DNA of 23,049 nt from a virus: positions 1-23,049 of IMG/VR virus record IMGVR_UViG_3300032053_000550, one strand, 5' to 3'. Positions 2,520 to 22,718 of this stretch are shown here, in pieces; positions within the stretch are counted from its first letter, which is position 1, and the number at the start of each line of letters is the position of its first letter. Under the pieces are notes generated by a model that saw nothing but the letters and a program-made list of their open reading frames with translations, was not told the DNA's origin and made no database searches. Made by a program: the position numbers and the translations under genes.

Positions 2520-2520
2520 A

Positions 2521-2902: not shown

Positions 2903-3181
2903 TCACTTCCCCCTTAACTCTATATCACTAAGTATGCGATAATATTTCCGAATTGCATGATGACTGAATCCAGTGAGCTTATACAAGTCACTTTGATGGA
3001 GTATATCACCTTTTTCTTTGGCTGCCACGCAAACCGCCGAGACGAACATAATCTTCCGGTTTCCTTCATATCCACGAAGTTTCTGTGCTATCTCTATTCC
3101 TTTGTCAAGCGTTTCCTTGCTAACACCATTTGTCAACAAGATATCATATTCTTCTTTTACGACCTCGTCAAAGGTTCGCAT
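2903..3181 (-). CDS. Mini-TFB: single TFIIB-like cyclin-fold domain protein
   Basis: A 92-residue protein whose middle (about residues 41-88) lines up by eye with the second cyclin repeat of archaeal TFB: a helix like SAVCVAAKEKG in place of the AAAAIYIAAK pattern, a helix HQSDLYKLTG in place of QREVAEVAGV, then SHHAIRKYYRILSDI in place of TEVTIRNRYKEL. That last pair is the helix-turn-helix which in TFB reads the BRE upstream of the TATA box. The N-terminal zinc ribbon, B-reader and first cyclin repeat of full TFB (about 300 aa) are all missing. I start at ATG 3181, 4 bases after the RHH stop; a TTG at 3199 is possible. It sits second in the operon behind a DNA-binding regulator, which suits a transcription role: redirecting or blocking host initiation. 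Family call is inferred from pattern, not alignment. Confidence 0.62.
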   Translation of the reverse strand: MRTFDEVVKEEYDILLTNGVSKETLDKGIEIAQKLRGYEGNRKIMFVSAVCVAAKEKGDILHQSDLYKLTGFSHHAIRKYYRILSDIELRGK

Positions 3182-5337: not shown

Positions 5338-5363
5338 TATATTAAACGTTGGCTTTATAAAGC
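5338..5363. promoter_or_regulatory. Divergent promoter with a palindromic TATA element
   Basis: GCTTTATAAAGC at 5352-5363 is a perfect 12-base palindrome containing a TATA box readable in both directions. Rightward, its first T lies 31 bases before the terminase ATG (5385), the spacing seen at the other late promoters, and would give a leaderless mRNA. Leftward, it would start transcription near 5331, at the AGGTG site of the 65-aa gene. A second leftward candidate, TTTAATATA (5346-5338), lies 24 bases before that ATG. Confidence 0.6.
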
Positions 5364-5384: not shown

Positions 5385-6671
5385 ATGAATGACAGATTCA
5401 TCAAACTCATTTTCACAGACCCAGTTTATTTTTTTGAGTATGCTACAAACAAGAAACCTTATGACTATCAGTGCAAATTCTTGCGTTGTGAGGATAAGAG
5501 GATAACGGTAAGAGCGGGAAGACAGTGCGGAAAATCCACAATGATAACTGTCAAAGCCCTTTTTGATGCTATAATGAATCCTAATTATCTCATTCTTATA
5601 ATCGGTGCTTACCAGAAGCAAGCTAATGAAGACTTTTACAAAATAAAGGAATATATCAACATGGTAGACTTCGTTAAGATGCAGGTAGAACGTGAAACAC
5701 TGACGCAGATTGAATTTAAGAACAAAAGCAGGATACTTTGTCTGCCAGCAGGTCGGGCAGGAGCATCCATAAGGGGATATTCACCACAACTAATCATCTT
5801 TGATGAAGCTGCATTTGCTTCGGATAGGGTATATGAAGCCATCGAACCATCTGTCGCTGTTACAAAAGGTGGTATAATTCTGACATCAAACACTTTTGGA
5901 AAGTCTGGATTTTTCTATGAATCATTTGATGATGCTTCTGGATTCACCAAATTTCATGTTAAAGCCAGCGATTGCCCTGGTTTTTCAAAAGAAGATTTAG
6001 AACGCCTTAAAAGAACAAAGCCAGAAATTGTCTATGCTCAGGAGTATGATGCGGAGTTCATAGAAGAAGCCGATAATTACTTTAATATGAATCTGATAAA
6101 ACAATGTATCAATGATGAAATTGAAATAAATGGACCTGAGGGAGACAAAGAATATATCATGGGTGTTGATTTAGCACGCATGGGTACGGATTCATCAGTT
6201 TTTATGATTGGAGAACTTTCAGACGACAAGATATTCGTAAGGAAGATTATAGCAACAATGAAAAAGCCAGCTACAGACGCAATAGGCAGGATAAAAGATT
6301 TGCATAGAGTCTTTGATTTCAAAAGAATATATGTTGATGAATCCAGCATAGGTGGTGCTATTTATGACATACTTGAAGAAAGTGAACTACCAATCATCCC
6401 TTGCAAGTTTTTCTCTCATGAGAAATCCGAGCTTTTTAAATCACTTAAATTGCAGATGGAACAAAAGAAAATATTCTATCCAAATAACCAGCAACTTGTA
6501 ACCGAAATGGCTAATCTTAAATACTCATTCACATCAAATGGTTTGCTGAGTTTAAAACCACCAGCAAAAGGACATGATGATATGGTAGATGCTTTGGCAC
6601 TTGTTTGTAAGCATTTCAATACAATAAAGTATGACCAAAGTGGTGATGATTTCCCAATGAAGTCTGGTTAA
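5385..6671 (+). CDS. terL: Terminase large subunit (DNA packaging ATPase/nuclease)
   Basis: The motor that cuts concatemeric viral DNA and pumps it into the procapsid through the portal. The ATPase domain shows Walker A GRQCGKST (about residues 44-51) and Walker B LIIFDEAAF (about 138-146), and the coupling segment ILTSNTFG lies about 30 residues later. The RNase H-like nuclease domain follows with its acidic residues in MGVDLARMGTDS (about 258), IYVDESS (about 315) and GHDDMVDAL (about 395). At 428 residues it is on the short side for the family but all motifs are present. It has no Shine-Dalgarno site and would be read from a leaderless mRNA. No small terminase subunit is recognisable beside it. 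A separate promoter lies between it and the portal. Confidence 0.96.
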   Translation: MNDRFIKLIFTDPVYFFEYATNKKPYDYQCKFLRCEDKRITVRAGRQCGKSTMITVKALFDAIMNPNYLILIIGAYQKQANEDFYKIKEYINMVDFVKMQVERETLTQIEFKNKSRILCLPAGRAGASIRGYSPQLIIFDEAAFASDRVYEAIEPSVAVTKGGIILTSNTFGKSGFFYESFDDASGFTKFHVKASDCPGFSKEDLERLKRTKPEIVYAQEYDAEFIEEADNYFNMNLIKQCINDEIEINGPEGDKEYIMGVDLARMGTDSSVFMIGELSDDKIFVRKIIATMKKPATDAIGRIKDLHRVFDFKRIYVDESSIGGAIYDILEESELPIIPCKFFSHEKSELFKSLKLQMEQKKIFYPNNQQLVTEMANLKYSFTSNGLLSLKPPAKGHDDMVDALALVCKHFNTIKYDQSGDDFPMKSG

Positions 6672-6680
6672 TTTTCAAAA

Positions 6681-6692
6681 ACCTTATATAAT
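6681..6692 (+). promoter_or_regulatory. TATA promoter for the portal operon
   Basis: ACCTTATATAAT, with TTATATA at 6684-6690, lies 30 bases (first T) before the portal ATG at 6714. The ATG has no Shine-Dalgarno site, so a leaderless transcript is expected. An A-rich CAAAAACC stretch lies directly upstream where an archaeal BRE would be. Confidence 0.65.
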
Positions 6693-6713: not shown

Positions 6714-8339
6714 ATGAGACTCCCTTTGTTAAATTTAAATATATCGAGAAAAGCGGAAACAATTAAAAATGATTTTTTCCTTCGTTCTGGCAACACTTCT
6801 CCTGAAAGTCACTTGCTTGCTTTGGCTGATATTATTCCTGATAAAAAAGGCGAGAAGAAAACTACCAATGACACACTTCCATTAAAGCGGATAGAGTTCA
6901 GCAAACTTGAATTAGCATATACACTTGATGAGGTCTCAAATAGGTGTGCTAATTTTTATGCACTTCAGGTGTCTGGTCCTGGTTTTGATTTAGTTGGTGA
7001 CCCAAAATCGGTTGCCATTCTGAGAGATTTTAATTATTCTGTAAGATTGAAATTGAAAATAGAGGAGATAACAAGGGATTTGTGTATCTGTGGCAACTCA
7101 TTCTGGGAACTCATACGAAATTCCAAGAATGATATTGTTGATATACAGCGTATTGACTTTAAAAAAATAGATTATGTGCGTGATGAATATGGTCATGTGA
7201 AAGAGGATTCTAGCGGAATACCAGTTGGCTATGTTTTTGGTTTGAATACAAAATCGCCTGTATATTTTACTGATGGGAAAGAAGGAAATAACAACAGAGA
7301 AGATATCTTACATTTCAAATTGTTTTCGTTTGGCAATGAACTCGCTGTTGGTTATATGGAACCATGTTTCAAGATTATTTATCTTAAACTTAATGTGAGG
7401 GATGGTCTTGCTCAGGCAAGTTACAGAATAGGCCATCCACTTCATGTCATTTATGTCGGCGATGCTCCAAACCCAAAGATAGGTTATGCAGGCCACCTGC
7501 CAAATGACAGTATGGTTAGCAAGATTGACAATGAATTTCAGAATATCGAGACAAAACACAAATTCGTCATGCCATATTATGCTAAAGTCGAGCAACTAAA
7601 GCCAGATGCCGGACTTCCACAGAGAGAACTGCTTGATTATTGTGATTCAAGGATATCTGGTTGTTTTGGTATTCCACTTGAACTTGTTATCGGCGAGGGA
7701 AAAGGTAACAAAGCTACAATGGAAGTTGCTATTACTCGTGACCTTGATAGAAGAATCAGGAGCATACAAAATAAAGTATCAGTGGAAATAGAGTCAATAC
7801 TTTTCCCACAAATTTTGGAACAGAATAACATAAAAATCTCCAAGCTCCAGACACCAATCATGAGATGGAGAGAGATAACTCCTGCGGACCTTAACAGAAA
7901 AGCCAAGAGAATAATATCCTACATAGAAGCTGGAGTGTTAATGCCGGAAGACATAAGGGAACAGGTAATAATCGAAGAAAGCCTTAGACTTCCAACTAAT
8001 AGAATGAAAGAGATAGAACAGAAAGGCGTGGAAACACTGGCGCTTGATGATATGAACGTCATAAGTTACCTGGAATTGATAAAAGTCTCTTTCCCATATT
8101 CACAGGTTATACTTCTTGTTGAAGAATTACTGGCAAGATTGACAAAAGTAAACAAACTCTCAATGATAGAATCAATGCATATAGAAGGCAAGAGATTTGT
8201 CAGTGTCACGGAAGCATTGTTTGTGATGAAATATATTAGGGATAATTACAAAGATAAAAAAATCCAGCAGATATGCTTTCAATTAATTGAACTCATCAAA
8301 CTCAAAGACCTAAGGGTATCGGAGGGAAGATATGACTGA
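6714..8339 (+). CDS. Portal protein
   Basis: Forms the dodecameric ring at one capsid vertex through which DNA enters and leaves. At 541 residues it has the usual portal size. The stem/clip region ends in a characteristic block around residues 305-370: SRISGCFGIPLELVIGEG, KATMEVAITRDLD, then a long helix ending ESILFPQIL. Earlier segments such as GNSFWELIRN and IDFKKIDYVRDEYGHV are also typical of the SPP1/HK97 portal group. The last 120 residues are helical and rich in Leu, Lys and Glu. It directly follows the terminase, as in most tailed viruses. Its 3' end overlaps the next gene by 8 bases. Confidence 0.92.
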   Translation: MRLPLLNLNISRKAETIKNDFFLRSGNTSPESHLLALADIIPDKKGEKKTTNDTLPLKRIEFSKLELAYTLDEVSNRCANFYALQVSGPGFDLVGDPKSVAILRDFNYSVRLKLKIEEITRDLCICGNSFWELIRNSKNDIVDIQRIDFKKIDYVRDEYGHVKEDSSGIPVGYVFGLNTKSPVYFTDGKEGNNNREDILHFKLFSFGNELAVGYMEPCFKIIYLKLNVRDGLAQASYRIGHPLHVIYVGDAPNPKIGYAGHLPNDSMVSKIDNEFQNIETKHKFVMPYYAKVEQLKPDAGLPQRELLDYCDSRISGCFGIPLELVIGEGKGNKATMEVAITRDLDRRIRSIQNKVSVEIESILFPQILEQNNIKISKLQTPIMRWREITPADLNRKAKRIISYIEAGVLMPEDIREQVIIEESLRLPTNRMKEIEQKGVETLALDDMNVISYLELIKVSFPYSQVILLVEELLARLTKVNKLSMIESMHIEGKRFVSVTEALFVMKYIRDNYKDKKIQQICFQLIELIKLKDLRVSEGRYD

Positions 8340-8577
8340 AGAATCTAGGTATGTCCAGATTTTTGCTACACAATATACTCAGAAAATAGCATATAATGCA
8401 AGTGGTATGGCTGAATATATAGGTGAAGCAAAACCAGGGGTTGCAGCTGGTGTGATTGGATGGAGAATAAAGAAACTCACTTATGATGGAACCAATGTAA
8501 CTGACATCCAATGGGCAGATTCAACTAATGAATTTGTGAAAATTTGGAACTCACGATTGACTTATACTTATGGTTAA
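8332..8577 (+). CDS. Small conserved virion-type protein, 81 aa
   Basis: A short protein with a pattern seen in many phage structural regions: an N-terminal strand (VQIFATQYTQKIAYN), then GVIGWRIKKLTYDG, NVTDIQWADSTNEFV and a C-terminal NSRLTYTYG. From memory this block recurs beside tail-fibre or portal genes in unrelated phages, where its function is not established. It starts within the end of the portal gene with GGAGGG 6 bases before the ATG, and ends overlapping the next gene. It may be an adaptor or cap for the large surface proteins downstream. Confidence 0.65.
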   Translation: MTEESRYVQIFATQYTQKIAYNASGMAEYIGEAKPGVAAGVIGWRIKKLTYDGTNVTDIQWADSTNEFVKIWNSRLTYTYG

Positions 8578-10642: not shown

Positions 10643-10651
10643 GATTATGAT

Positions 10652-13600
10652 ATGGCAAGGATTTATCAACAGACGATTATAAAATGGGCTAAATCAATAG
10701 GCTTGCCAGCAGGCACAATAGGTTCTGTAATTGTGTTATACATTTTGTATTCTATTTTTGTGGGGGATATAACAGTCACAGGAAATACCAATGACATGAA
10801 ATGCTGGGGAGCCGACATGAACAATGATGGCAGCATGTTCTATTCCAACTGGACACCACAGAAATACAATGGGGAATATGAAGCGTGTTTTTTCATAGTA
10901 AACTTTACAGCAAATAGGGATAGCTTCTGGTATCCTATTAACTATGACCCATGGGAAAGGAATGAGTCTTTCATGTTTAATCCATCAGTAAAATCATGGA
11001 AGATATATCGTTCATGGGGAAAAGGCTGGAGAGAGATACCAATGACAATATCATGTACTGGGACATGGTGCGGTTCACCAGACAATACAGGAACACAGAA
11101 ATACTCAGTAGCATGGAGAGATATGAGAGCTTATACCGTCATGGTTGTTGCAGAAAAACACAATCCAAAAGATGTGATTAAATGGAAATTCGATATCGTT
11201 GACCCGTTGTGGTTAAGTGCACTTTCAGATGAATATTCATATAAAGTAATTACATCAACCAATGTGGACTTCAAGGGACAGAAAGAAGTCACAGACAACG
11301 GCTGGAAGTTTGCCAACAACTCAGGAATAATCTTCTCAGCGCCATCGGAACTGCAGTGTGACTGGTTTGACAACGGGCCACTAAAACACTGCAATACAGT
11401 CGTGGAAGTAACAAACAGGGATGGGATAGCACTGTCGCTCAACGGGCTTAAGTACACGTTTTCGGGACTAGAGAAGTATAACCCTGTTATAGAGTATTCT
11501 ACAGATGCGACAAGGTACTTTGAGCCTTTGGAGTACAAAGATGAGAATGATACTTTGCTTCTTGTCGTGAACGTGGAACGTTACAGCTGGGACAAATGGC
11601 AGAAGGTAGCTAACAGCGTGGTTCTGCCTGAACGGTACGCAATAAGGGCTGGGTTCTATATGCCAAAGTATGAAAGAACCCATTATAACTTCACACTTGA
11701 GGGGCTGGCTGGAGGATTTATACCAATAAAATATGATCTGGACCCAGAGGTTGGAGAGTGTGGCTCATTGACAACAAATACCAGATACTATAACTTGACA
11801 AGAGACCTAAATAGTTCTGGGGATTGTATGACAATCACAGCTAGTGATGTGATATTTGATTGTAATGGATTCAATATAACATATGGAAAAGATGGAACAG
11901 CGAGCTCTATAGGAATTGATTCTTTTTCGGGAAGCAATAAAACAATTAAAAACTGCAAAATAGATGAAGGCTCGTTAAACTGCACAACATCATGTGCTGC
12001 CATTTCTGTTGGAACAGATGAAACAATCTTAAACAACACAATATATGTCACAAGCGGCGACGGAATACTATTGACAAGCAACAGCCATATAATAGAAAAC
12101 AATACCATCTACACAAGACAAGGTGATTGTATAGCAGTCGGAGCCAGAGACATAAACACAATAAAAGGAAACATATTGAATTCAACCGAAGATTATTCCG
12201 GAACCCCATATGGTATATATATGTCAAGCGGTTCAATCAGTAACACAATAACCAACAATTACATCTGGGCTGGAGGCACGACTGCAACAGACGCAGCAGT
12301 TTACCTGTCGAACTCCGATGACAACATATTCATAAACAACACGATAATATCAAGCAGCGCAGGGTATGCAGTCTATTTGCGTGCAGGGAGCCAAAGGAAC
12401 TATTTCTACAATAACACAATAATACACAGGGCAGGAGAAATAGCCATTGATTCCATAACAGGCTCAAGCGAAAATGTATTCGACAAGATATATGTTGAAA
12501 GCAGCTGTTCGACACAAACAGCCCTTTTTGCAGGGACACAGGGAATAATAATCAATAACTCAGTGTTCAACAACACAGCAAACGGATATGCACTAGACTT
12601 CTCGACACAATCAGGGAATTTCACAGTAGAGAATACGCTTTTGAAAGCTACCAACGACTATGGACTACACATGCAAAACATAAACGGCATTGACGCAGCA
12701 GGGGCAAATAACTCAGTATTCAGAAACGTGGAAATAATATCAGAAACACAGAATACAATTTATTTTAATACAAACATCACTTATGGAAGGTTCATAAGCC
12801 TTAACGTAACAGCAGGTTCAGACGATTATGCAATATATTTTGCTTCTGGCAACCACACAAGGTTCGAGGACAGTATATTCAAAGGGTTTCCAGCAACTAA
12901 TGCTGACATGAGAATGGACGCAACAACAATAAACATATCTTTCATTAACTGCACGTTCAGAAAGCTGGTATTTGTAGGTACATGGGCAGCAAACAGCCCT
13001 GAAGCATACATCACAAAGGAATGGTGGTGGAGAGGATATGCAAAAGATACAGCAGGAAACCCATTATCTGGGGCATCCATTGAGATATACAACTCAACAG
13101 GGCATTTACAAAACAACATGACAACAGGGGCAGACGGGTACACCGCAAGGATGAACCTGATAGAATATCTGTCAAACGCATCAGCAAAATATTTCTTCGC
13201 ATCACCATATACATTCAACGCAACAAAAGGGGGATACACAGATGCAGACATAACAGGATGGAACTGGACTGACAACAACATGACATTCGAGTTTATGCTT
13301 GCAGGCGGAGCCCCAGCAGGCGACTCCACCGCCCCAGCCGTCACGCTCTATTCGCCCCCTGACCAGAACAAAACCAATTCCACAACCATAACTGTCAATT
13401 TCGTGTGCAACGCAACCGACAACATCAAAGTAGAAAACGTCACATTGTACCATAACCAGACAACATGGCATGCAAACGTCACAAATACCACATCCCTAAA
13501 TGCAACTCAGACAACATTTTCAGTCGGTGCCTTTACAAATGGTACTTATCTTTGGATATGCAGAGCATGTGATAACTCCAGCAACTGTGCGTATGCGTCA

Positions 13601-13870
13601 GCCAACAGGACTTTTGAAGTAGGGTATAACGTAGCAGTTTCAGCAAGTACATGCGCCTGTGCCAGCATACAAGCGGGAACAGCAATTAACTGTGCTGAGA
13701 ATTGCACGATAACTGCTTGCAATGCCAATGGGCAGAACATAGTAATATCAGGATTCGGCAGGATTATAGTCACAGGTGACGTTTCAAACTATGGAAAGCT
13801 CACAATAAAAGGCGTGAGCAGCAGTAGTACATGCAATGTCAAGTGTACAACAGGATGCTTTAGGAGATAA
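10652..13870 (+). CDS. Membrane-anchored beta-helix surface protein with Ig-like domain, 1072 aa
   Basis: A single TM helix near the N-terminus (about residues 22-38, GSVIVLYILYSIFVG) with a short basic cytoplasmic end would anchor it with the bulk outside. Residues about 41-365 form an unrecognised, Trp- and Tyr-rich domain. From about 368 (GECGSLTTNTRYYNLT) a right-handed parallel beta-helix of NosD/PbH1 type runs to about 770, seen as short turns such as SNSHIIENNTIY and DDNIFINNTII. A CarbReg-like segment follows (AKDTAGNPLSGASIEIYN, about 795-812). Next is an Ig-like domain starting APAVTLYSP (about 893), and the end is a Cys-rich tail (about 998-1072). N-x-S/T sequons are frequent. The layout matches archaeal host surface proteins more than tail fibres, though beta-helices are also used by tailspikes to bind or cut glycans. 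Confidence 0.72.
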   Translation: MARIYQQTIIKWAKSIGLPAGTIGSVIVLYILYSIFVGDITVTGNTNDMKCWGADMNNDGSMFYSNWTPQKYNGEYEACFFIVNFTANRDSFWYPINYDPWERNESFMFNPSVKSWKIYRSWGKGWREIPMTISCTGTWCGSPDNTGTQKYSVAWRDMRAYTVMVVAEKHNPKDVIKWKFDIVDPLWLSALSDEYSYKVITSTNVDFKGQKEVTDNGWKFANNSGIIFSAPSELQCDWFDNGPLKHCNTVVEVTNRDGIALSLNGLKYTFSGLEKYNPVIEYSTDATRYFEPLEYKDENDTLLLVVNVERYSWDKWQKVANSVVLPERYAIRAGFYMPKYERTHYNFTLEGLAGGFIPIKYDLDPEVGECGSLTTNTRYYNLTRDLNSSGDCMTITASDVIFDCNGFNITYGKDGTASSIGIDSFSGSNKTIKNCKIDEGSLNCTTSCAAISVGTDETILNNTIYVTSGDGILLTSNSHIIENNTIYTRQGDCIAVGARDINTIKGNILNSTEDYSGTPYGIYMSSGSISNTITNNYIWAGGTTATDAAVYLSNSDDNIFINNTIISSSAGYAVYLRAGSQRNYFYNNTIIHRAGEIAIDSITGSSENVFDKIYVESSCSTQTALFAGTQGIIINNSVFNNTANGYALDFSTQSGNFTVENTLLKATNDYGLHMQNINGIDAAGANNSVFRNVEIISETQNTIYFNTNITYGRFISLNVTAGSDDYAIYFASGNHTRFEDSIFKGFPATNADMRMDATTINISFINCTFRKLVFVGTWAANSPEAYITKEWWWRGYAKDTAGNPLSGASIEIYNSTGHLQNNMTTGADGYTARMNLIEYLSNASAKYFFASPYTFNATKGGYTDADITGWNWTDNNMTFEFMLAGGAPAGDSTAPAVTLYSPPDQNKTNSTTITVNFVCNATDNIKVENVTLYHNQTTWHANVTNTTSLNATQTTFSVGAFTNGTYLWICRACDNSSNCAYASANRTFEVGYNVAVSASTCACASIQAGTAINCAENCTITACNANGQNIVISGFGRIIVTGDVSNYGKLTIKGVSSSSTCNVKCTTGCFRR

Positions 13871-13884
13871 ACCAGGAGGTAAAT

Positions 13885-14190
13885 ATGGTTTTTAAAACAA
13901 GCGAGGGAAGAATGGCAGACAACATACAAAAGATACAGATAGACATAGCCAAGATAGAAGAACACCTGAAAAACATAAATGGCAAGGTGACAAGGACAGA
14001 TGCAGATTTATGTAAATTGAGCGATAAGCATGTTTATGATGTGAAGTGCATAGAGGATAAAATAGACAAGTTTTCGGGTGATATTGTAAATAACAAAGTT
14101 GAGATAGCTAAAATAGCAGGAGTCAGTGGATTGGCAGGACTCGGTGGCGGTGGCGGAATGATGTTAGTGTTAAAGGCAATAGGAGTATAA
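13885..14190 (+). CDS. Coiled-coil protein with a C-terminal hydrophobic segment
   Basis: A 101-residue protein preceded by one of the best Shine-Dalgarno sites in the window (AGGAGGT). Residues about 10-75 are strongly helical with heptad-like spacing (QKIQIDIAKIEEHLKNI and further blocks). The C-terminus is Gly-rich and hydrophobic (GLAGLGGGGGMMLVLKAIG). This coiled coil plus membrane-tail layout resembles XhlA/hemolysin-type phage proteins associated with holins, but the hydrophobic tail is short for a TM helix. It could instead be a membrane adaptor for the two large surface proteins encoded just upstream. The neighbours favour the second idea slightly. Confidence 0.55.
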   Translation: MVFKTSEGRMADNIQKIQIDIAKIEEHLKNINGKVTRTDADLCKLSDKHVYDVKCIEDKIDKFSGDIVNNKVEIAKIAGVSGLAGLGGGGGMMLVLKAIGV

Positions 14191-14608: not shown

Positions 14609-15305
14609 GAAACCTGACGGTTTGAATTTGGAAATTCTGGAAAAATGTAAATGCAAGGAAATCATTACAATGCCACTCAAAGGTTTTGATGGCATAGATG
14701 TGAATTATTGTGTTAATGGTTTTGAGAACTGTGTCCAATCCCTTTCTTTTGATACAACATGGGATAAAGACCGAATGCTACTTTTTATGAGAAGATATGG
14801 CAAACAGGTTTTGGACTTCAAGACAGGTGATATGCCTGAAAGATTACAAAGAATAGACATAAACTGCAATATAGAATACTTAGGGAAACCTTTTAAGATG
14901 CCTTATGAGTTTGAGTTCATTGCACTCAAAGAAGGCAAATTTAATAACGTAATATATACAAAGGAAGAACTCAAAAAAGGTTGCATGACATTAAACGGCA
15001 AAGATATTACTATTGACCATTCTAAATCGGTTGAAGGTATAGTTGGCGAGGTTACTGATGTCTGGTGGAATGAGAAAGATGAAAGGATTGAAGGGAAGGG
15101 TGTAATCAAAGATGAAAAGATTGCTCACATGGTTCATGATGGAAGGATAAAAGGTGTCAGTGTTGAGGTCTTTGTTGACTATAAAAAAACACCGCAGGGA
15201 TTGGAAGGAACTGATTATGAGTTTGTTGCCATTTCATTGGTATCCCGTCCAGCATGTCCAACCCCACTTTGTGGAATAAAACAAAACATTGGAGTTTTAA
15301 ACTAA
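14580..15305 (+). CDS. Capsid maturation (prohead) protease
   Basis: Cleaves scaffold and capsid precursors inside the procapsid. The C-terminal half (from about residue 108) shows the phage prohead-protease pattern. YTKEELKKGCMTLNGKDITIDHSKSV carries the likely catalytic His in DITIDHS (about residue 147), followed by GIVGEVTDVWWN and EGKGVIKDEKI. GVSVEVFVDY carries the likely catalytic Ser (about residue 197), and VAISLVSRPACP is the usual closing strand. It is closest to the XkdF/DUF2213 style of the family. The N-terminal 100 residues are unrecognised. It is followed by a new promoter and the scaffold gene, the expected order. Confidence 0.82.
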   Translation: MEKKKAKLYKKPDGLNLEILEKCKCKEIITMPLKGFDGIDVNYCVNGFENCVQSLSFDTTWDKDRMLLFMRRYGKQVLDFKTGDMPERLQRIDINCNIEYLGKPFKMPYEFEFIALKEGKFNNVIYTKEELKKGCMTLNGKDITIDHSKSVEGIVGEVTDVWWNEKDERIEGKGVIKDEKIAHMVHDGRIKGVSVEVFVDYKKTPQGLEGTDYEFVAISLVSRPACPTPLCGIKQNIGVLN

Positions 15306-15325
15306 TTTTGAGTTAGCATTATATA
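15306..15325 (+). promoter_or_regulatory. Late promoter, copy 1 of a repeated 20-base element
   Basis: TTTTGAGTTAGCATTATATA, starting at the base after the protease stop codon. Its TATA box (TTATATA, 15319-15325) has its first T 29 bases before the scaffold ATG (15348), which lacks a Shine-Dalgarno site, so a leaderless mRNA is expected. The same 20 bases occur at 21702-21721. Confidence 0.75.
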
Positions 15326-15347
15326 GGATACATTGCAAAGTTAATCT

Positions 15348-15947
15348 ATGGAAGAACTCGAAATATCGGAAGTCCTTCAGAATGAAGTAAGTCCAAAGGT
15401 TGACTGCAAGGAAAATGCTAAACAGGAAGAAATACTCAAAGCTGAAGTAACAGTGAACACGGTTATTCCGGTTGAAGCAAAACCTGTCGAGAACTCCAAA
15501 CCAATAGAGTCTGTTTCAGAAATAACATCCCCAGAATCAAAAGGCAAACTGACACTTAGCGTATCTGATTTTGAATCTCTTAGTGTTGAAGAGCTTATGG
15601 GTCTTGCCTGTCAGACATTTGAATGCCTGAAAGTCAAGATGGCAAAAAAGACGTTGCCAGATGAAGATAAAGAAGACCCTGAAGAAGATGCCTGTAAAAA
15701 GAAACCAAAAGAAATGGCAAAAGAGTTCATAAATGAGATGGAAAAGAAAGCCAAAGAAAATGAGAAACTTTCCAAAGATATTACTCAACTCACTGCTAAG
15801 ATTCAGGAATTGGAGAATAAAGGCGTAAAAAAAGCAGTTGAAACCTTAGAAGATACTACTAAAGACGCAACCACACCACAACCTGAAACACCAGTAAAAG
15901 GTAAAATGGTGTTCAGAAAAGATGGAAGCGTCTATCAATGGGATTGA
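15348..15947 (+). CDS. Probable capsid scaffolding protein
   Basis: A 199-residue, very charged protein placed between protease and capsid genes, the classic position of a scaffold. The N-terminal third is low-complexity and acidic. A middle segment (LSVSDFESLSVEELMGLACQTFEC) is more ordered. A long coiled coil occupies about residues 110-160 (KEMAKEFINEMEKKAKENEKL and LTAKIQELENK). A Thr/Pro linker then leads to a conserved-looking C-terminal peptide (MVFRKDGSVYQWD) that could bind the major capsid protein, as scaffold C-termini do. It leads its own transcript from the repeated promoter. Confidence 0.7.
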   Translation: MEELEISEVLQNEVSPKVDCKENAKQEEILKAEVTVNTVIPVEAKPVENSKPIESVSEITSPESKGKLTLSVSDFESLSVEELMGLACQTFECLKVKMAKKTLPDEDKEDPEEDACKKKPKEMAKEFINEMEKKAKENEKLSKDITQLTAKIQELENKGVKKAVETLEDTTKDATTPQPETPVKGKMVFRKDGSVYQWD

Positions 15948-15977
15948 TGAGTTTAAATATAGGAGGATAAAGGAGAA

Positions 15978-16409
15978 ATGACACTGAACATGATTAGTGC
16001 CGAGGCGGGATGCTTTACAGCATACGCTAATGCAGCGATTGATGCAGGAGCTTTCGTAAAGTCCATTAGCAGCAACGATGTAGTGACAAGTTCGGGACTA
16101 TCCACATACGTTACTGAAGATATAAAGGTCGAAGAAGCTGATGACGCTTCAACAGATTACACAATCGTCGTTGGTTTAGCTGGCGCAGATGCCGCAGCAG
16201 CAGCATATTTGCCAGTTTACACTGAAGGTCTTTTTATCGTCAGGGCAGGTGAAGCAGTAGCAGTGGGCGGATGCGTCCAGCTTGCTGAAGACACCGACGA
16301 GTATGAGGTAGACGCACTAGACTCTACATACGGCGAACACAAGATTGGCAGAGCATTAACAGGAGCATCGGCAGCAGACGCATACCTAATCATTTTACTC
16401 CGAATTTGA
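15978..16409 (+). CDS. Probable capsid decoration (cement) protein
   Basis: A 143-residue, Ala/Gly/Val-rich, all-beta protein of the kind found just before the major capsid gene in many tailed viruses (DUF2190-like). Characteristic parts are TAYANAAIDAGAFVKS at the start, TIVVGLAGADA, then EGLFIVRAGEAVAVGGCVQLAED and a final IGRALTGASAADAYLIILLRI. Such proteins clamp the outside of the expanded capsid. Two ribosome sites lie upstream (AGGAGG and AAAGGAG, the nearer 3-7 bases before the ATG), suggesting strong translation, as suits a stoichiometric capsid component. A TATA-like TTTAAATA at about 15954-15961 is probably too close to the ATG to be its promoter. Confidence 0.7.
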   Translation: MTLNMISAEAGCFTAYANAAIDAGAFVKSISSNDVVTSSGLSTYVTEDIKVEEADDASTDYTIVVGLAGADAAAAAYLPVYTEGLFIVRAGEAVAVGGCVQLAEDTDEYEVDALDSTYGEHKIGRALTGASAADAYLIILLRI

Positions 16410-16411
16410 AT

Positions 16412-17284
16412 ATGAAAACGTTACAACAGCTTGCAGACGAAGGTGAACTTTTTTATGCATTCGAGAGTGAACTGGTTAAGCAACAGCTTTATGACATTGT
16501 CAAGGAAGCCTCAATAGAGAATAGAGTTGGTAGGCAACTTGTTGATGTAATAAATCTAAAGTCTGGTGCAGCACTTGATATAATAACTGCTGATAAAGAC
16601 TCAATGGAGTTTAGAAGAATCGCCGAAGGTGCGCTAATACCAGTAGACACAGAAGCATACACAAAGGCCACAGTGACACCCGCTAAATGGGGTAACAGAG
16701 TTGTAATCTCAACTGAGCTTCAGGAAGATGCCAACTGGGATGTTATGCAGAGAAACCTCAGACAAGCAGGTAGGGAAGCAGGAGTCAGGGAAGATGTGAT
16801 AATTTTCACAGCATTCAACGACTCAACATACGGTTTCCCAGGAACAAGTGGTCAGTATGGAACATCCGCTGGTACGGAAATATCTGTGACAGACATAGCC
16901 AATATGATGTATGGTCCGGAATCAAAGGACTACAATCCAAATGTATTGGTTCTACATCCATCACAGGTGAAAGAACTCAGGCAGATAGACACTTTCGTGG
17001 AAGCTGACAAAGTTGGAAGCAGAGTAACATTTGACAAAGGCTTTGTTGGAAAAATCTTCGGTATGGACGTTGTAATTTCAAGGTCAGCATGGGTTGGACA
17101 GACATCAACAGAATACGCATGGTGTCTTGACACAACTGAAGCTGGTGTACTTGTAGTTAGAAGGCCACTTACAATGAAGACATATGAACTTCCTGAGAGA
17201 GATGCAATAGGCGTTGCGGTAACATTCCGTGAAGAAGCAAGAGTGCTTCGACCCGAGGCAGGGTACAGATTGACAATCAGTTAA
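16412..17284 (+). CDS. Major capsid protein, HK97 fold
   Basis: The shell protein. At 290 residues it has the size of a mature-length HK97-fold capsid protein without a delta domain, consistent with a separate scaffold. Typical elements are an N-terminal helical arm, AEGALIPVDTEAYTKATVTP leading to KWGNRVVISTELQED (E-loop/spine region), a helix ending AGREAGVREDVIIF, NPNVLVLHPSQVKEL with KGFVGKIFGMDVVIS (A and P domains), and a closing MKTYELPERDAIGVAVTFREEARVLRPEAGYRLTI. I start at ATG 16412, two bases after the decoration stop; no Shine-Dalgarno site is seen, so it probably relies on coupling to that gene. A TTG at 16406 is a less likely start. Confidence 0.9.
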   Translation: MKTLQQLADEGELFYAFESELVKQQLYDIVKEASIENRVGRQLVDVINLKSGAALDIITADKDSMEFRRIAEGALIPVDTEAYTKATVTPAKWGNRVVISTELQEDANWDVMQRNLRQAGREAGVREDVIIFTAFNDSTYGFPGTSGQYGTSAGTEISVTDIANMMYGPESKDYNPNVLVLHPSQVKELRQIDTFVEADKVGSRVTFDKGFVGKIFGMDVVISRSAWVGQTSTEYAWCLDTTEAGVLVVRRPLTMKTYELPERDAIGVAVTFREEARVLRPEAGYRLTIS

Positions 17285-17316
17285 ACTGATTGTTTAAGGG
17301 AATCACTACGATAGAT

Positions 17317-17520
17317 ATGGTTAAAATTAAAAATGCTAAAATAGTAACAGACAGACCTGTAGAAGCGATAACACTGGAGAAAGCAAAACCTCTCCAGACA
17401 AAAGAAAATCTTGATGTTATTGTTCGCAGGTTAAGAAATGAAATCGAAAATTCCACAACAATAACCATTCCTTTAGACAAAGCAGTTGAAATATTGAGGT
17501 CTCTGGAAAAACACTTATGA
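17317..17520 (+). CDS. Hypothetical protein, 67 aa
   Basis: A small basic protein beginning MVKIKNAKIVTDRP, with ENLDVIVRRLRNEIEN and a C-terminal helix AVEILRSLEKHL. It lies just after the major capsid gene, where small head proteins or chaperones are often found. An upstream TTG (17290) could extend it by nine residues, but ATG 17317 is a more ordinary start. Its stop overlaps the next gene's ATG (ATGA). No family recognised. Confidence 0.55.
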   Translation: MVKIKNAKIVTDRPVEAITLEKAKPLQTKENLDVIVRRLRNEIENSTTITIPLDKAVEILRSLEKHL

Positions 17521-18845
17521 AAGGGTTCATAAAATACACTTTAGGAATTTTTGGTTTTGCTTTATTCTTATCTATCATTTACTCACTAACTTTCACATTA
17601 GCAGCTCCAACCACATTCACATTTGCTGCTACGTCAATAGCAAATAATAGTTTTATCACAGCAAACTGGTCATGGATAAACTTTACATCCAATGAAGATT
17701 TACTCAACGCATCATGCCAGATTTTTCATTTCAACGGTAGTATACAAAATAAAACATTAAGTAATACTTCCCTAACAGCATGGGGAGTTAATATATCAGC
17801 ATTAGTTGACAGTCCTGTTGGAAAGAGTTATAATTTTACTTGTCATTCCACAAATAGAACTGGGACTCGTGCTACCAGTGATATATATTTCTTTGAAATA
17901 GACAGCCAAGCACCAACAATGTCTAGTCATTGGGTTTATGGTTTATATAATACATCAGGTGGCAATTTCATTGAAGTGTTCCAGAATATGTCTGATGCAA
18001 ATACAGATGCCTGCAAATTTTTAATCTGGTATGAAGTAGTAACTCCGGCTGTGAATCCACAGGCAACTACCAAAACATTTGTACTGGGTAATACGTTGGC
18101 TGGTACGTTAGTATCAACTACAACACATGAAAAGAACTGCTCACTTAATATAACATGGACAGATATAGAAGTTGCTGGCAAAAGAGGTCAGTTTTTGATA
18201 GAAGGTTGGTCTAATGACAGTGTAGGACGTGAAACCAAATCACTTCAGAACCTTACATTAGTATATAATAAACTGGTAGCAGGATATTGGACACCACTTG
18301 GTCATGTAGAAGCATCCAGGACACTGTTACAGTGGGCTTACAAAGCATATTTCATGAACATAAGCTATGTATCGGTATTCAATAATACATATGGTTTGCA
18401 CAACTTTACAACTTATAGAGCTAACTATTCAGCAAGTAACACTTCTATAATAGATGCTGGTAATGTTAGCGGACTATATGTATACCCAGCAGTAAACTGG
18501 GGACTGATAAGATATGATTCGACATCAACTGCAAATTGCTGGCTTTATGCAGCCAATACAACTGTCAATCTAACGATAACACCAACTGGAATAAAAACTC
18601 CGTGGAACCTTGTAGCTATGGTTTATACAAATACAACTGCAGCAATAGCAAATAAATCAGCTAGTATAACATTCGTTTCATGGCATAATGCATCAGATAC
18701 AAGATGCCCTGGTGGATGTTACATAACACACAAAAAGGGATGGGATTTCAATGCCAATGTTACCATTTATAGAGGAGAAGCAATGTGGATACTGACAAGT
18801 ACAAATGGTACAACATCAAATGCAGGAGTTGCACTTTCGAGGTAA
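17517..18845 (+). CDS. Exported sequon-rich surface protein, 442 aa
   Basis: An N-terminal signal or anchor (about residues 7-28, LGIFGFALFLSIIYSLTF) directs it across the membrane. The body is all-beta in character and dense in N-x-S/T sequons. An Ig-like domain at about residues 30-125 has the pattern FTSNEDLLNASCQIFHFNG ... YNFTCHSTNRTG, with two Cys at typical distance, then DSQAPTM begins a second domain. The C-terminal half (from about 250) is rich in aromatic residues and ends in a Cys-containing segment (DTRCPGGCYITHKKGW). No C-terminal anchor is visible. It is translated by ATGA overlap from the gene before it. It resembles host archaeal surface proteins; its place between capsid and connector genes is unexpected. 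Confidence 0.68.
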   Translation: MKGFIKYTLGIFGFALFLSIIYSLTFTLAAPTTFTFAATSIANNSFITANWSWINFTSNEDLLNASCQIFHFNGSIQNKTLSNTSLTAWGVNISALVDSPVGKSYNFTCHSTNRTGTRATSDIYFFEIDSQAPTMSSHWVYGLYNTSGGNFIEVFQNMSDANTDACKFLIWYEVVTPAVNPQATTKTFVLGNTLAGTLVSTTTHEKNCSLNITWTDIEVAGKRGQFLIEGWSNDSVGRETKSLQNLTLVYNKLVAGYWTPLGHVEASRTLLQWAYKAYFMNISYVSVFNNTYGLHNFTTYRANYSASNTSIIDAGNVSGLYVYPAVNWGLIRYDSTSTANCWLYAANTTVNLTITPTGIKTPWNLVAMVYTNTTAAIANKSASITFVSWHNASDTRCPGGCYITHKKGWDFNANVTIYRGEAMWILTSTNGTTSNAGVALSR

Positions 18846-18848
18846 AAT

Positions 18849-19610
18849 ATGAAAACTAAACTATCTTTCGGGCTTATAATTGGACTGACATTCATGATGG
18901 CATTTGCTTCAGCACTTTCGCCACCGCTTCCAATAAGCGGAACGGTATATGATGAAGGTAATACTGATGGAATTGATGTTACCATATACAACGTCAGAAC
19001 AGGTGAGACTCAGATAACAACAACCGAATTTGGCGGACAATATCTTTTCGACTGGGCAAATACCAACCTTAAATATACAGACTATGACCAGTTCCAGATA
19101 ACAGTAAGAGGCATTACAAAGACAATAACATTTACTGGAGGGCCAATAGAAGCCAATTTTGATTTCACAGGCGATGGCACTTGTCCAGAATGCCCTTCTT
19201 GTGGTACATGCCCAACAGACACAACTCCATATTCAGAATGTAATTCATGTTGTCAAGTAGACCTTACACCATACGAAACATGTGATGCTTGTTGCCTGGC
19301 TTGTCCAGAACAGACACCATGTCCATCACAGACACCTTGTCCAATACCCACACAATGTGAAACTAATGAATGTCCAGTATGCGACACAACAGTAGCGTCA
19401 ATAATAGCCGTAATAGCAGGGCTAATATTAGGAGCTGGTGGTAGTGTCGGAGTGCAAGCGTATAGGAATGCCAAAGGTGGCGTGACAGTAAAGCACAAAC
19501 ATGCTGGCATAAGAGGTTATCACGACATAAATACAGTACATAATAATCCATTATATAGGCACGCAAAAGGAGAATTAACACCTAATTTGCCTAATAAGGT
19601 AGAGGGATAA
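18849..19610 (+). CDS. Membrane-anchored protein with CarbReg-like head and Cys-rich stalk, 253 aa
   Basis: A signal peptide (about residues 5-22, ending ASALS) leads into a carboxypeptidase-regulatory-like beta sandwich (about 26-110: PLPISGTVYDEGN, TTEFGGQYLFDWANTN). A stalk of about 70 residues (about 112-184) follows with 16 Cys, many in CxxC or CC pairs, including a repeated D-x-TPY-x-x-C-x-x-CC unit and PSQTPC-type units. A TM helix (about 186-208, SIIAVIAGLILGAGG) then precedes a basic cytoplasmic tail rich in His (VKHKHAGIRGYHD). Signal at one end and TM at the other make it a type I membrane protein with its head outside. GAGGT precedes the ATG. The role may be adhesion or anchoring at the cell surface; the exact function is unknown. 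Confidence 0.68.
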   Translation: MKTKLSFGLIIGLTFMMAFASALSPPLPISGTVYDEGNTDGIDVTIYNVRTGETQITTTEFGGQYLFDWANTNLKYTDYDQFQITVRGITKTITFTGGPIEANFDFTGDGTCPECPSCGTCPTDTTPYSECNSCCQVDLTPYETCDACCLACPEQTPCPSQTPCPIPTQCETNECPVCDTTVASIIAVIAGLILGAGGSVGVQAYRNAKGGVTVKHKHAGIRGYHDINTVHNNPLYRHAKGELTPNLPNKVEG

Positions 19611-19612
19611 AT

Positions 19613-20026
19613 ATGCCACAAGCACCATTTCCAATAACAGGAACGGTAACATACAATTCATCAGTATTGCAGGGAGCCAAAGTATGGGCGCAGGATATAA
19701 CAGAGGGGACAATGGCTTATGCGCAGGAGAACCTTACTTTCGCATACACTAATGCCAGTGGACAATATGTCATTGACCTGGCAAACATAACATCAGCGTA
19801 TGCCAATCTTGATAAGATAAGAGTATATTGTGAAATAGAAAACATGGGAACATGGAGTGATATTGTTATATCACTCGGCGAGGGTTCGGCATCATGCGAC
19901 TTTACGATTACAAGAAAGAGCGGTCTCACTGACGGAATAAAGTCCACAAAAGATACTAGTGGTAAATATGGATTATCATCTCTTGGAAGAGGCATGAAGA
20001 TAGGAATGAAAGATGCTCTTCAGTAA
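19613..20026 (+). CDS. CarbReg-like beta-sandwich protein, paralogue of the preceding gene's head
   Basis: A 137-residue protein whose first 100 residues follow the same plan as the head of the protein just upstream: PFPITGTVTYNSS against PLPISGTVYDEGN, then NASGQYVIDLANITSAYANLDKIRV against FGGQYLFDWANTNLKYTDYDQFQI, and both close with a D-F-T strand. It has no signal peptide or TM segment, so it should stay in the cytoplasm and could be a virion part. The tail (SGKYGLSSLGRGMKIGMKDALQ) is Gly-rich and basic. GAGGG lies upstream of the ATG, two bases after the previous stop. A domain duplication with changed destination is the likely origin. Confidence 0.62.
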   Translation: MPQAPFPITGTVTYNSSVLQGAKVWAQDITEGTMAYAQENLTFAYTNASGQYVIDLANITSAYANLDKIRVYCEIENMGTWSDIVISLGEGSASCDFTITRKSGLTDGIKSTKDTSGKYGLSSLGRGMKIGMKDALQ

Positions 20027-20034
20027 GGATTTTC

Positions 20035-20421
20035 ATGAGCAAAGCAGACAGAATTAAGGTATGCAAGAATACATTGACTGTTGCTACTGCTACCACTTGG
20101 TCTGAAGGGACTGTTTATACTGATGTCATTGATGGAGAAATTATAAAAGTTGTTTTTGATTTCACAAGTTCTGATGCTGATGCAGTAATTTCATTAAAGA
20201 CCAGGGATACACCAGCAGAAACGGTAGCCGAGATAACTGGTTGGGCATCTGATGTTACACTTTACCCAGTTGTTGAAGCCAAAACTAATGCCAATGCTAC
20301 AGCAGCAGCGGCCACTAAAACAAACGTTTTCACAAGATATGTTGTGAAAGGAAGCCTGGCAATCACCTGCTCGGCAGCCACAGCACTTGATACGGTTACT
20401 GTAAAAGTATATTGGAGGTAA
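20035..20421 (+). CDS. Probable virion beta-sandwich protein (decoration or head fibre type), 128 aa
   Basis: An all-beta, Ala/Thr/Val-rich protein: KNTLTVATATTWSEG, TDVIDGEIIKVVFDFTSSD, VISLKTRDTPAETVAEITGW, a low-complexity Ala/Thr loop (NANATAAAATKTN), YVVKGSLAITCSAA and a final DTVTVKVYW. This looks like a small jelly-roll or Ig-type structural protein used as a head decoration or minor virion component; similar short proteins often stand between capsid and connector genes. No signal peptide. AGGA lies before the ATG. Function by context only. Confidence 0.55.
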   Translation: MSKADRIKVCKNTLTVATATTWSEGTVYTDVIDGEIIKVVFDFTSSDADAVISLKTRDTPAETVAEITGWASDVTLYPVVEAKTNANATAAAATKTNVFTRYVVKGSLAITCSAATALDTVTVKVYWR

Positions 20422-20422
20422 C

Positions 20423-20650
20423 ATGGAAGTTAGGCCAGTAAAGAGTATGGCTGAAAGACCCCCATGCCAGCTCAAGATTTCTGAACAATGCGATGGCAAA
20501 GCACTCATGAGAATATCGTTAAAGAATGGTACTCCTGTTAATGTGTGCCATTTTTGCCGATGGCTTAACAACTATGGCGAAGAATGGAATCCTGTTGGAA
20601 TGTATGTGAACCAGAAATACGATCAGGTGAATAAAGGGAGAATGATTTGA
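20423..20650 (+). CDS. Zinc-finger hypothetical protein, 75 aa
   Basis: Four Cys in the order C-x7-C-x18-C-x2-C (PPCQLKISEQC ... VNVCHFCRW) suggest one zinc site of treble-clef or zinc-ribbon type, placed in the first two thirds. The rest is polar with Asn, Tyr and Lys. A strong GGAGGT precedes the ATG, one base after the stop of the preceding gene. Its location among connector genes is unusual for a zinc finger; it could assist assembly or be carried along with the late operon. HNH nuclease residues are not apparent. Confidence 0.6.
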   Translation: MEVRPVKSMAERPPCQLKISEQCDGKALMRISLKNGTPVNVCHFCRWLNNYGEEWNPVGMYVNQKYDQVNKGRMI

Positions 20651-20651
20651 T

Positions 20652-20933
20652 ATGCGTTCCATGCGTTGTCCTAAATGCTCATTTTGGATATTCTATGATG
20701 AAAGAACAGAAGTAGATATAGTTCATCAGTGCCGAGACGCAACTGGTTCACGATTACAAAGGAAAGAGGAGTTTAATCATCAGGGAACAAGAGTAACCCT
20801 AAAAATGGACGAGAAAGACTACTGGGACCAGATGGGCATAAATCCACTGCAACCCAGAAGAGTATTAACACCAACAAAATTCAAAAATCAGTTTAAAACC
20901 AATACAAACGTAGACTACTATATTGAGGTATAA
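20652..20933 (+). CDS. Zinc-binding hypothetical protein, 93 aa
   Basis: Starts with a half zinc ribbon (MRCPKCSFWIFYDE) and a third Cys with a nearby His in VHQCRD about 17 residues later, so the site may be of C-x2-C-x(n)-H/C type. The C-terminal part is basic and polar, with KMDEKDYWDQMGINPLQPRR. It follows the previous zinc protein by one base after its TGA, with GGGAG upstream. A second in-frame ATG (20661) is equally possible. The two zinc proteins form a pair before the connector genes; function unknown. Confidence 0.58.
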   Translation: MRSMRCPKCSFWIFYDERTEVDIVHQCRDATGSRLQRKEEFNHQGTRVTLKMDEKDYWDQMGINPLQPRRVLTPTKFKNQFKTNTNVDYYIEV

Positions 20934-20935
20934 CT

Positions 20936-21304
20936 ATGGCATATACAACATCAGCTAAAGTGAGAGATGTAACGGGATTGACTACAACAGACATAGCTGA
21001 TGCTGATTTAGATGACATAATAACCTTAGCTGACAAGCAACTTGACAGCATACCAGATGTCACTTTTGATTCTTCAACAGCAGAACTAGCTTCTACTTAT
21101 CTTTGCGCTTCACTGGCACTCAGGAACTTAGCCAGCAAGACAATGACTAGCCCAACAAGTTATTCACTAGGCAGGTTGAGGGTTGACAACAAAAGTGTTG
21201 TCGAACTGAGGATGGCACTTGCCCAGAATTTCATGGATAATTATAATTCTATCGTGTCATTCGTGACAGATGGAACAGGAATAAAGAAGATACAAACAGA
21301 TTGA
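20936..21304 (+). CDS. Head-tail connector protein (gp6-like)
   Basis: An all-helical 122-residue protein with the usual pattern of the portal-adjoining connector ring: an N-terminal DVTGLTTTDIADADLDDIITLADKQLD, a second helix pair ELASTYLCASLALRNLASK, and a final long helix VVELRMALAQNFMDNYNSIV. These proteins extend the portal channel after packaging (HK97 gp6, SPP1 gp15 group). GAGGT lies before the ATG. It is directly followed by a stopper-type protein, the expected partner. Confidence 0.7.
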   Translation: MAYTTSAKVRDVTGLTTTDIADADLDDIITLADKQLDSIPDVTFDSSTAELASTYLCASLALRNLASKTMTSPTSYSLGRLRVDNKSVVELRMALAQNFMDNYNSIVSFVTDGTGIKKIQTD

Positions 21305-21311
21305 GGTAATT

Positions 21312-21701
21312 ATGGCTTTATCAGCACAAATAATATCAGACTTTGGTGGCATCATAGATACCCATGGCTCTACTGTTAATGTCTATTTAGCACCGACTTA
21401 TACTTACGACACAGAAGGCAATGATAGCATTGCAAAAGGTACCGCCACTAGTGCCAAAGCGCTTGTTTTTAATGAAAGAGGCGAGATGGCAACATCACAA
21501 CCAGAAGGTATTGACGTGGAACTTAAATATGAAATCTACTTAAAAAGCACAGTAGGAACGATATCAGTCAATGATTTGATTTCATGGGGTTCAAAGTATT
21601 ACAGAATCATAAGCATAGATGAAAATCCGTTGGACACCGAAACTGTGACATTTTATTACCTGACAGCGGAACGCATACAACCTCAGTCCAAAGTCAGCTA
21701 G
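21312..21701 (+). CDS. Head closure (stopper) protein
   Basis: A 129-residue beta-barrel-like protein with the typical late segment SVNDLISWGSKYYRIISIDENPLDTETVTFYYLTAERI, which matches head closure proteins of the SPP1 gp16 / HK97 group. The central part (ALVFNERGEMATSQPEG, VELKYEIYLKSTVG) also fits. This protein plugs the portal-connector channel until tail joining. GAGGT precedes the ATG. Its stop codon is followed at once by the second copy of the repeated late promoter. Confidence 0.7.
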   Translation: MALSAQIISDFGGIIDTHGSTVNVYLAPTYTYDTEGNDSIAKGTATSAKALVFNERGEMATSQPEGIDVELKYEIYLKSTVGTISVNDLISWGSKYYRIISIDENPLDTETVTFYYLTAERIQPQSKVS

Positions 21702-21721
21702 TTTTGAGTTAGCATTATATA
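21702..21721 (+). promoter_or_regulatory. Late promoter, copy 2 of the repeated 20-base element
   Basis: Identical over 20 bases to 15306-15325 and likewise placed directly after a stop codon (the stopper's TAG). The TATA box (21715-21721) lies 31 bases before an ATG at 21746 that opens an 18-codon frame, and 78 bases before the tail-completion ATG (21793). The remaining intergenic bases (21722-21792) hold that short frame and a GGAGG ribosome site. Confidence 0.75.
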
Positions 21722-21745: not shown

Positions 21746-21802
21746 ATGAGTCCTTTATGGATGAAGAAACCCCCCTGTATGGAGGATAGAAAATGGCCGT
21801 AA
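21746..21802 (+). CDS. Putative 18-aa leaderless leader peptide
   Basis: An 18-codon frame (MSPLWMKKPPC..., ending KWP then TAA) whose ATG sits 31 bases after the first T of the TATA box, exactly where the other operon-leading genes begin. It spans the GGAGG ribosome site of the next gene and ends 10 bases inside it. It may be a small leader peptide whose translation opens or controls that site, or simply chance. Supported by spacing only. Confidence 0.35.
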   Translation: MSPLWMKKPPCMEDRKWP

Positions 21803-22236
21803 GTGTAAGTACAATCACTACAAATATCTGGGATGCAATACAGACAATCATAAGTGGCAATACTACAGTAGACAACAATTCTACTGCTGTTTATGGGACA
21901 TATCCTCAACAGTTCATTGATTCTGCTGGAGGGCTTCCAATGGTTATAGTACACAAACCCGAGGTGACAGAACAAAGGATTACAATGACCAAAAAGAAAT
22001 TCCTTATTTCTATCAGGATAGAATCCTTTACTGACAACGCTGCTGGTCTTAAAGTGCTTTCTGATGCAGTAAGGAACGCCCTCGAAACCAATAAAGTTAC
22101 CACAAGAGGCAGCAACCAGCTTTATCATTTTAAAATAGTCGAAGATACAGAAGATTTTGACTTAAGGGCAAACAAAAGAGTACACCGCAACATACTTGGT
22201 GCTTCATATGAGTTTGTCGGTGGAGGAGATTTATAA
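21793..22236 (+). CDS. Tail terminator or tail-completion protein
   Basis: A 147-residue protein in the position of the minor tail/terminator gene. It has an N-terminal TTNIWDAIQTIISG helix, then GGLPMVIVHKPEVTE, a strand pair KKKFLISIRIESFTDNA, a helix LKVLSDAVRNALETN and a closing HRNILGASYEFVG. This alpha/beta order (helix, strands, helix, long strand) is that of tail terminator proteins such as lambda gpU and SPP1 gp17. GGAGG lies 7-12 bases before the ATG. Its stop overlaps the next ATG by one base (TAATG). Confidence 0.62.
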   Translation: MAVSVSTITTNIWDAIQTIISGNTTVDNNSTAVYGTYPQQFIDSAGGLPMVIVHKPEVTEQRITMTKKKFLISIRIESFTDNAAGLKVLSDAVRNALETNKVTTRGSNQLYHFKIVEDTEDFDLRANKRVHRNILGASYEFVGGGDL

Positions 22237-22718
22237 TGGCTAATATACTGACAATCAACATTGATGACAGAAAAGCAAGGGATATGTTAGGCAGAATCAG
22301 AAAAAATCTTCCACAAGTCAATGATAAAGGAGCCAAAAAAGTTGCTGACATCTATGCCGAAGAGATAAAATTCAGGATGTATGCACATAAATTTACTGGA
22401 ACTTCTATGGGAGATTTGGATTTGGGTGGCATAAAAGTTGAAGATGGTAAATATGTTGTCAGAGCGCCAAAATATCTCTGGTATGTTGACCAGGGAACTA
22501 AACCACATTTCGTTAGTCTTTCAAAGCATCCAGAACTATATGATTGGGCAAGAATGCACGGTATGAATCCTTATTATTTACGTTATAAAATATCCAAAGA
22601 AGGAACAGAAAGATATGGTGTCATCAGGGATGGAATTAAAGCGGGTGATAAGAGATTCAGGCAAATCCTGAAACAACATTATGATACTTATATTGAATCT
22701 AAAGGGAGGAATGTATGA
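22236..22718 (+). CDS. HK97 gp10-like head-tail joining protein
   Basis: A 160-residue protein with the features of the HK97 gp10 group: an N-terminal LTINIDDRKARDMLGRIRKNL, a helix GAKKVADIYAEEIKFRM, and then the typical element GKYVVRAPKYLWYVDQGTKPH, where Y-x-x-x-x-x-G-T-x-P-H is the hallmark. Members assist joining of head and tail. The C-terminal part contains HPELYDWARMHG and basic helices. The ATG overlaps the preceding stop and has GGAGGAG upstream; the stop overlaps the next start (ATGA). Confidence 0.72.
   Translation: MANILTINIDDRKARDMLGRIRKNLPQVNDKGAKKVADIYAEEIKFRMYAHKFTGTSMGDLDLGGIKVEDGKYVVRAPKYLWYVDQGTKPHFVSLSKHPELYDWARMHGMNPYYLRYKISKEGTERYGVIRDGIKAGDKRFRQILKQHYDTYIESKGRNV

Follow-up and report, generated by a model that had tools for sequence, protein, structure and literature searches.

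The window analysed here is the whole 23,049-base stretch at positions 1-23,049 of IMG/VR virus record IMGVR_UViG_3300032053_000550. Its plus strand carries an HK97-type head gene set consisting of terminase, portal, protease (weakly assigned), scaffold-like, major capsid and neck genes, and the left part of the minus strand is occupied by a cluster of mostly small genes (Table 1). Long repeat-bearing proteins, probable fibres, are encoded between portal and protease (8332-14190, plus strand). The scaffold-like gene gave no family match and has only a C-terminal DGSVY-WD in common with its counterpart in the nearest relative (L003; E 0.94). The gene at 22236-22718 matches phrog_5 with an E of 5e-6. 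The leftward cluster also encodes an RNA ligase-like protein (1896-2534, minus strand; PF09414, E 3.6e-6; phrog_14301, E 8.9e-13). The best isolate match of the capsid protein is Halogranum tailed virus 1 (26%), which together with the TATA/BRE layout described below points to a tailed virus, probably of an archaeal host; a Bacillus phage matches the capsid at 23%, so the archaeal host falls short of proof. A host search through proviruses returned no relatives in two genome scans.

Table 1. Coordinates of the promoter elements and genes in the window, and of the repeated element in the nearest relative (L003/L010).
Feature	Position	Strand	Description
TFB-repeat-like ORF	2903..3181	-	92 aa, in early cluster; predicted to fold like one cyclin repeat of TFB/TFIIB
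Third BRE+TATA copy	5348..5361	+	GTTGGC-TTTATAAA, before terminase gene
Terminase large subunit gene	5385..6671	+	Pfam PF03237, E 3e-17; predicted leaderless from the third copy by spacing
Portal promoter TATA box	6683..6691	+	In 42-nt gap; A-rich BRE AAAACC, without GTTRGC
Copy 1	15306..15325	+	TTTTGA; BRE-place hexamer GTTAGC, 15312-15317; TATA box ATTATATA, 15318-15325
Scaffold-like gene	15348..15947	+	Headed by copy 1, leads to major capsid gene; predicted leaderless
Major capsid protein gene (HK97 type)	16406..17284	+	Pfam PF25209, E 1.4e-12; PF05065; phrog_1650
Copy 2	21702..21721	+	GTTAGC, 21708-21713; TATA box, 21714-21721
Connector/tail genes	21793..22718	+	Headed by copy 2; 21793-22236 no assignment; 22236-22718 tail completion/Neck1
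AATCTWTATAWA copy	L003:2250		Protease/scaffold gap
AATCTWTATAWA copy	L003:4238		Behind capsid gene
AATCTWTATAWA copy	L003:10035		Right behind homologue of gene 21312-21701 (28% identity, E 2e-9)
AATCTWTATAWA copy	L010:11457	-	Before a further gene

As the earlier note had reported, the 20-base sequence TTTTGAGTTAGCATTATATA occurs in two exact copies, both on the plus strand, and the window holds no further copy at up to three mismatches. The chance expectation for an exact 20-mer pair is 0.01, and the longest exact repeat in 200 Markov-1 simulated genomes of the window measured 13-18 bases. It is the longest exact repeat of the window outside a repetitive gene, the only other exact 20-mer repeat lying within the repetitive fibre gene (10037/10190). 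The two copies are alike over 43 nt at 79%, with 23 of their first 25 bases identical against a shuffled maximum of 17. The pair is therefore alike beyond chance and a third partial copy exists, as in a shared promoter set. Each copy starts right after a stop codon (TAA at 15303-15305 and TAG at 21699-21701), with the preceding CTA common to both (CTAA vs CTAG), and each heads a gene block, scaffold-like/major capsid behind copy 1 and neck/tail-completion behind copy 2; all of this had been described correctly from the letters. That each copy adjoins a stop codon seems to reflect a compact genome and not to be a feature of its own; the portal gap is arranged likewise, the gaps measuring 42 nt.

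A position right behind stop codons would also suit a 3'-end signal for the transcripts that lie upstream, either a U-rich terminator or an RNA processing site, and the TTTT run, which is present in the portal gap too, agrees with such a role. However, neither copy has a terminator-like plus-strand hairpin or an Rfam match of note, and the spacing between TATA box and ATG would be left unexplained, which makes a 3'-end signal very improbable. The 20-mers are best read as archaeal core promoters, each composed of a BRE and a TATA box. Four plus-strand gaps preceding gene blocks contain TATA boxes, at 5354, 6683, 15318 and 21714. Counted 23 bases on from the final A of the box, the spacing of Pyrococcus (PMC6640164), the predicted start falls 0-2 bases from an ATG in all four gaps, compared to a background of 7%. 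The ATG spacing fits the promoter-type layout of the earlier note, with a predicted start about 23 bases behind the TATA box. Leaderless messages are predicted at 5385, 6714 and 15348, because the predicted start coincides there with the gene's own start codon; for copy 1 it is the A of the ATG, 23 bases behind the box. A search for sigma-70 promoters (TTGACA, TATAAT, spacing 16-18) at copy 1, copy 2 and 5348 gave no match at any of the three sites, and the bacterial reading was discarded; the single 9/12 match, at 21787, lies downstream of copy 2. Altogether, it is likely that the 20-mers function as promoters, and the element is real and most likely functional, a promoter pair of known kind.

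At copy 2, the predicted start lies by the ATG (21746) of an 18-codon ORF, not by that of the main gene at 21793. This ORF (21746-21802, plus strand; MSPLWMKKPPCMEDRKWP) begins 2 bases from the predicted start, and its stop overlaps the start codon of gene 21793. The GGAGG ahead of the latter gene could form a hairpin with CCCCCC (21769-21787). The overlap and the hairpin would fit translational coupling with gene 21793. In the same leader, CTGATGAGTCC resembles a hammerhead core, but a ribozyme was rejected in view of the missing Rfam match.

The hexamer GTTAGC fills the BRE place directly before the TATA box of both 20-mers. It keeps G at -6 and A at -3, the bases preferred by TFB (PMC11065993), although that preference may not describe the host's own BRE; only GC at -2/-1 is off the usual pattern. 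The earlier statement that the hexamer is not a typical purine-rich BRE is therefore too strong. Within one mismatch, the hexamer accompanies three of the 48 TATA-like boxes on both strands (15318, 21714 and 5354), all of which head virion gene blocks. The box at 5354 belongs to a shorter third copy of the BRE and TATA part, which the earlier note omitted; it departs from the 20-mers at one base of the hexamer and two of the box, and GTTGGC has G at -6 but also G at -3. This copy was noticed after the fact; a match with one mismatch or none has a chance probability of 0.004 at any single given place. Its TATA box (5354-5361) is palindromic, with the leftward reading CATAGC-TTTATAAA, and might also serve the leftward early genes, beginning with the gene that starts at 5322. 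A second candidate leftward TATA box sits at 5384-5377, so shared use of the palindromic box is possible rather than proved. BRE-TATA-BRE arrangements exist in Pyrococcus, where TFB determines the direction (PMC6640164).

Six related contigs were found via the capsid protein, only one of which is close enough for comparison (L003/L010, capsid identity 64%); searches via the terminase added just one 23% match, and those via the portal nothing new. None of the six records carries the 20-base element at one mismatch. A search of IMG/VR with TTTTGAGTTAGCATTATATA gave no match, and its 18-mer core gave two, both inside antisense ORFs and taken as chance. The proposal of a virus-specific recognition site upstream of the TATA box gains from recurrence within the genome (GTTGGC at 5348), whereas the expected conservation in relatives failed: at these junctions, the nearest relative uses another sequence. 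That virus has a repeated element of its own, AATCTWTATAWA, with four exact copies in gaps, in coding direction, and the copies at L003:2250 and L010:11457 are identical at 23 of 25 bases. Those at L003:2250 and L003:10035 give both 20-mer junctions matched promoters in other letters. BLASTP of genes 21793-22236 and 22236-22718 against those genes of this relative that were compared detected no homology. Matched pairs in L007 (18/25) and L008 (20/25) hardly surpass their shuffled maxima (17 and 19, respectively), too weak for a general rule to be claimed, and none was found in L006. The counterpart of the fibre block lies behind the homologue of gene 21312-21701 in the relative (L003:10164 on), indicating that the block moved between the two viruses.

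These comparisons bear on whether the promoters are simply of the ordinary host type, with GTTAGC an acceptable BRE read by host TFB and a recent duplication or gene conversion event behind the identity of the pair. The hexamer fits the preferred BRE by its G at -6 and A at -3 (PMC11065993), the predicted portal promoter does without the hexamer, and the relatives use other letters. On the other hand, the third copy has the hexamer in common but differs in its flanks, a pattern that copying a segment would fail to produce, and the relative likewise keeps a matched set. Ordinary promoters of this sort are a serious possibility, but we lean against them. Instead, we propose that the 20-mers are archaeal-type core promoters and that one common factor reads both of them as well as the match before the terminase gene, switching the virion genes jointly, and consider this probable. 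The two 20-mers would start separate transcripts, one of the head block and the other of the connector/tail block. The same initiation or activator factor would read both of them and the third match, and would keep the shared part constant within the genome; packaging and virion genes would come on together in this way. Candidates for the factor are host TFB, acting alone or together with an activator, and a viral TFB-like protein. For a common factor speaks that there are only three hexamer-bearing boxes, all at the head of virion gene blocks; against it stand the portal promoter without the hexamer and the post hoc third copy with its three changed bases. The 20-mers are a probable dedicated late signal, where we infer the late timing from gene content only.

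Known archaeal virus promoters offer two parallels. SIRV2 and other Sulfolobales viruses have shared early-gene promoters, and as in the window, several promoters of one genome have near-identical BRE, TATA box and flanks; the flanks vary from virus to virus, a further likeness (PMC11065993). By contrast, the Sulfolobales set drives early anti-defence genes and has a purine-rich BRE (PMC11065993), whereas the present set precedes virion gene blocks and has GTTRGC in the BRE place. The GTC element of SIRV1 and SIRV2 is likewise a virus-specific element alongside the TATA box, but is located downstream of it (PMC5569661), while the shared part of the 20-mers lies upstream, in the BRE place.

The early cluster contains a candidate reader of the BRE-place signal, a speculative function for ORF 2903-3181. 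A single-sequence model (pLDDT 74) gives it five helices, with TFIIB, archaeal TFB and Brf2 as the best structural matches (Foldseek E 0.04) and the TFB of Saccharolobus solfataricus rod-shaped virus 1 as the best among viral proteins. Cyclins rank close behind, so the fold alone is not decisive. Ten sequences went into a profile of TFB repeat 2, namely eight fetched loci, human TFIIB and the P. woesei core, the last identical to PDB 1ais/1d3u. The ORF scores 14.7 bits against this profile and 2.7 against that of repeat 1; the highest of 2658 scored shuffles reached 10.2, and no other ORF of the window exceeded 2.7. In TFB, contact with the BRE is made by repeat 2, as in the 1d3u complex. The ORF has no Pfam match, PF00382 included, no relatives were found for it, and a sequence search of the PDB returned designed barrels and noise. 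A response regulator assignment (NCBIfam E 2e-4) was rejected as far under the cut-off and in conflict with the fold. Having one repeat and neither zinc ribbon, B-reader nor first repeat, the protein is termed TFB-repeat-like, not a TFB.

Made early, this protein might bind GTTRGC beside TBP and recruit host machinery to late promoters or redirect it there; its effect on the palindromic box (5354-5361) would be to favour transcription in the late direction. The fold matches headed by TFIIB/TFB/Brf2 and a rudivirus TFB, the repeat 2 score above every shuffle, and the established role of repeat 2 in reading the BRE are consistent with such a viral reader. Virus-encoded TFBs do exist (PMC10544981). 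However, without zinc ribbon, B-reader and first repeat, the protein would not by itself recruit RNA polymerase as TFB does, and it could equally compete with host TFB. Moreover, the model comes from a single sequence with a Foldseek E of only 0.04, the ORF lacks relatives, and nothing links it to GTTRGC. We therefore regard a viral reader as unlikely. An attractive and speculative extension is that the virus has a TFB repeat that stands alone and reads the BRE with a specificity of its own, for which GTTRGC would be a private BRE marking the virion blocks and flipping early to late at the palindromic TATA box between two different BREs; we give this even less credence.

Helper-dependent initiation is known from weak-BRE promoters with TFB recruiters, such as fla/EarA, the ara-box and TFB-RF1, and an off-consensus BRE with a good TATA box could create the same dependence here (PMC5512572). 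Those systems have recruiters, whereas any activator or activator site at the promoters of the window would be hypothetical. Among viral TFBs, ORF43 of HRTV-DL1 was found in virions (PMC10544981). This protein, gp32 of Acidianus rod-shaped virus 3 and the TFB of Saccharolobus solfataricus rod-shaped virus 1 are TFB-related, like the window ORF by profile and predicted fold. They differ in size, with 270-310 aa and two repeats (HRTV-DL1 and ARV3 sequences), compared to one repeat in the 92-aa ORF. The relative keeps matched promoters at the same junctions in changed letters, a pattern that joint change of promoter and reader would produce, although it may have other causes. Early/late timing in tailed archaeal viruses is little known, and the promoter pair, ordinary in kind and of interest in detail, provides with the TFB-like protein a testable idea for late gene switch-on. 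The genome is a small closed test set: three promoters have the common signal and one virion promoter lacks it, and a palindromic early/late box and a TFB-like protein of one repeat complete the set.

Two neighbours of ORF 2903-3181 are worth recording. In the same cluster, ORF 2521-2856 ends at its C-terminus in a short CxxC...CxxC zinc ribbon (2521-2625, minus strand), which matches that of TFIIB weakly and below the cut-off (PF08271, E 0.016). Directly upstream lies a 48-aa ribbon-helix-helix ORF (3186-3332, minus strand; PF01402, E 1.6e-4), whose gap may hold a leaderless promoter of its own.
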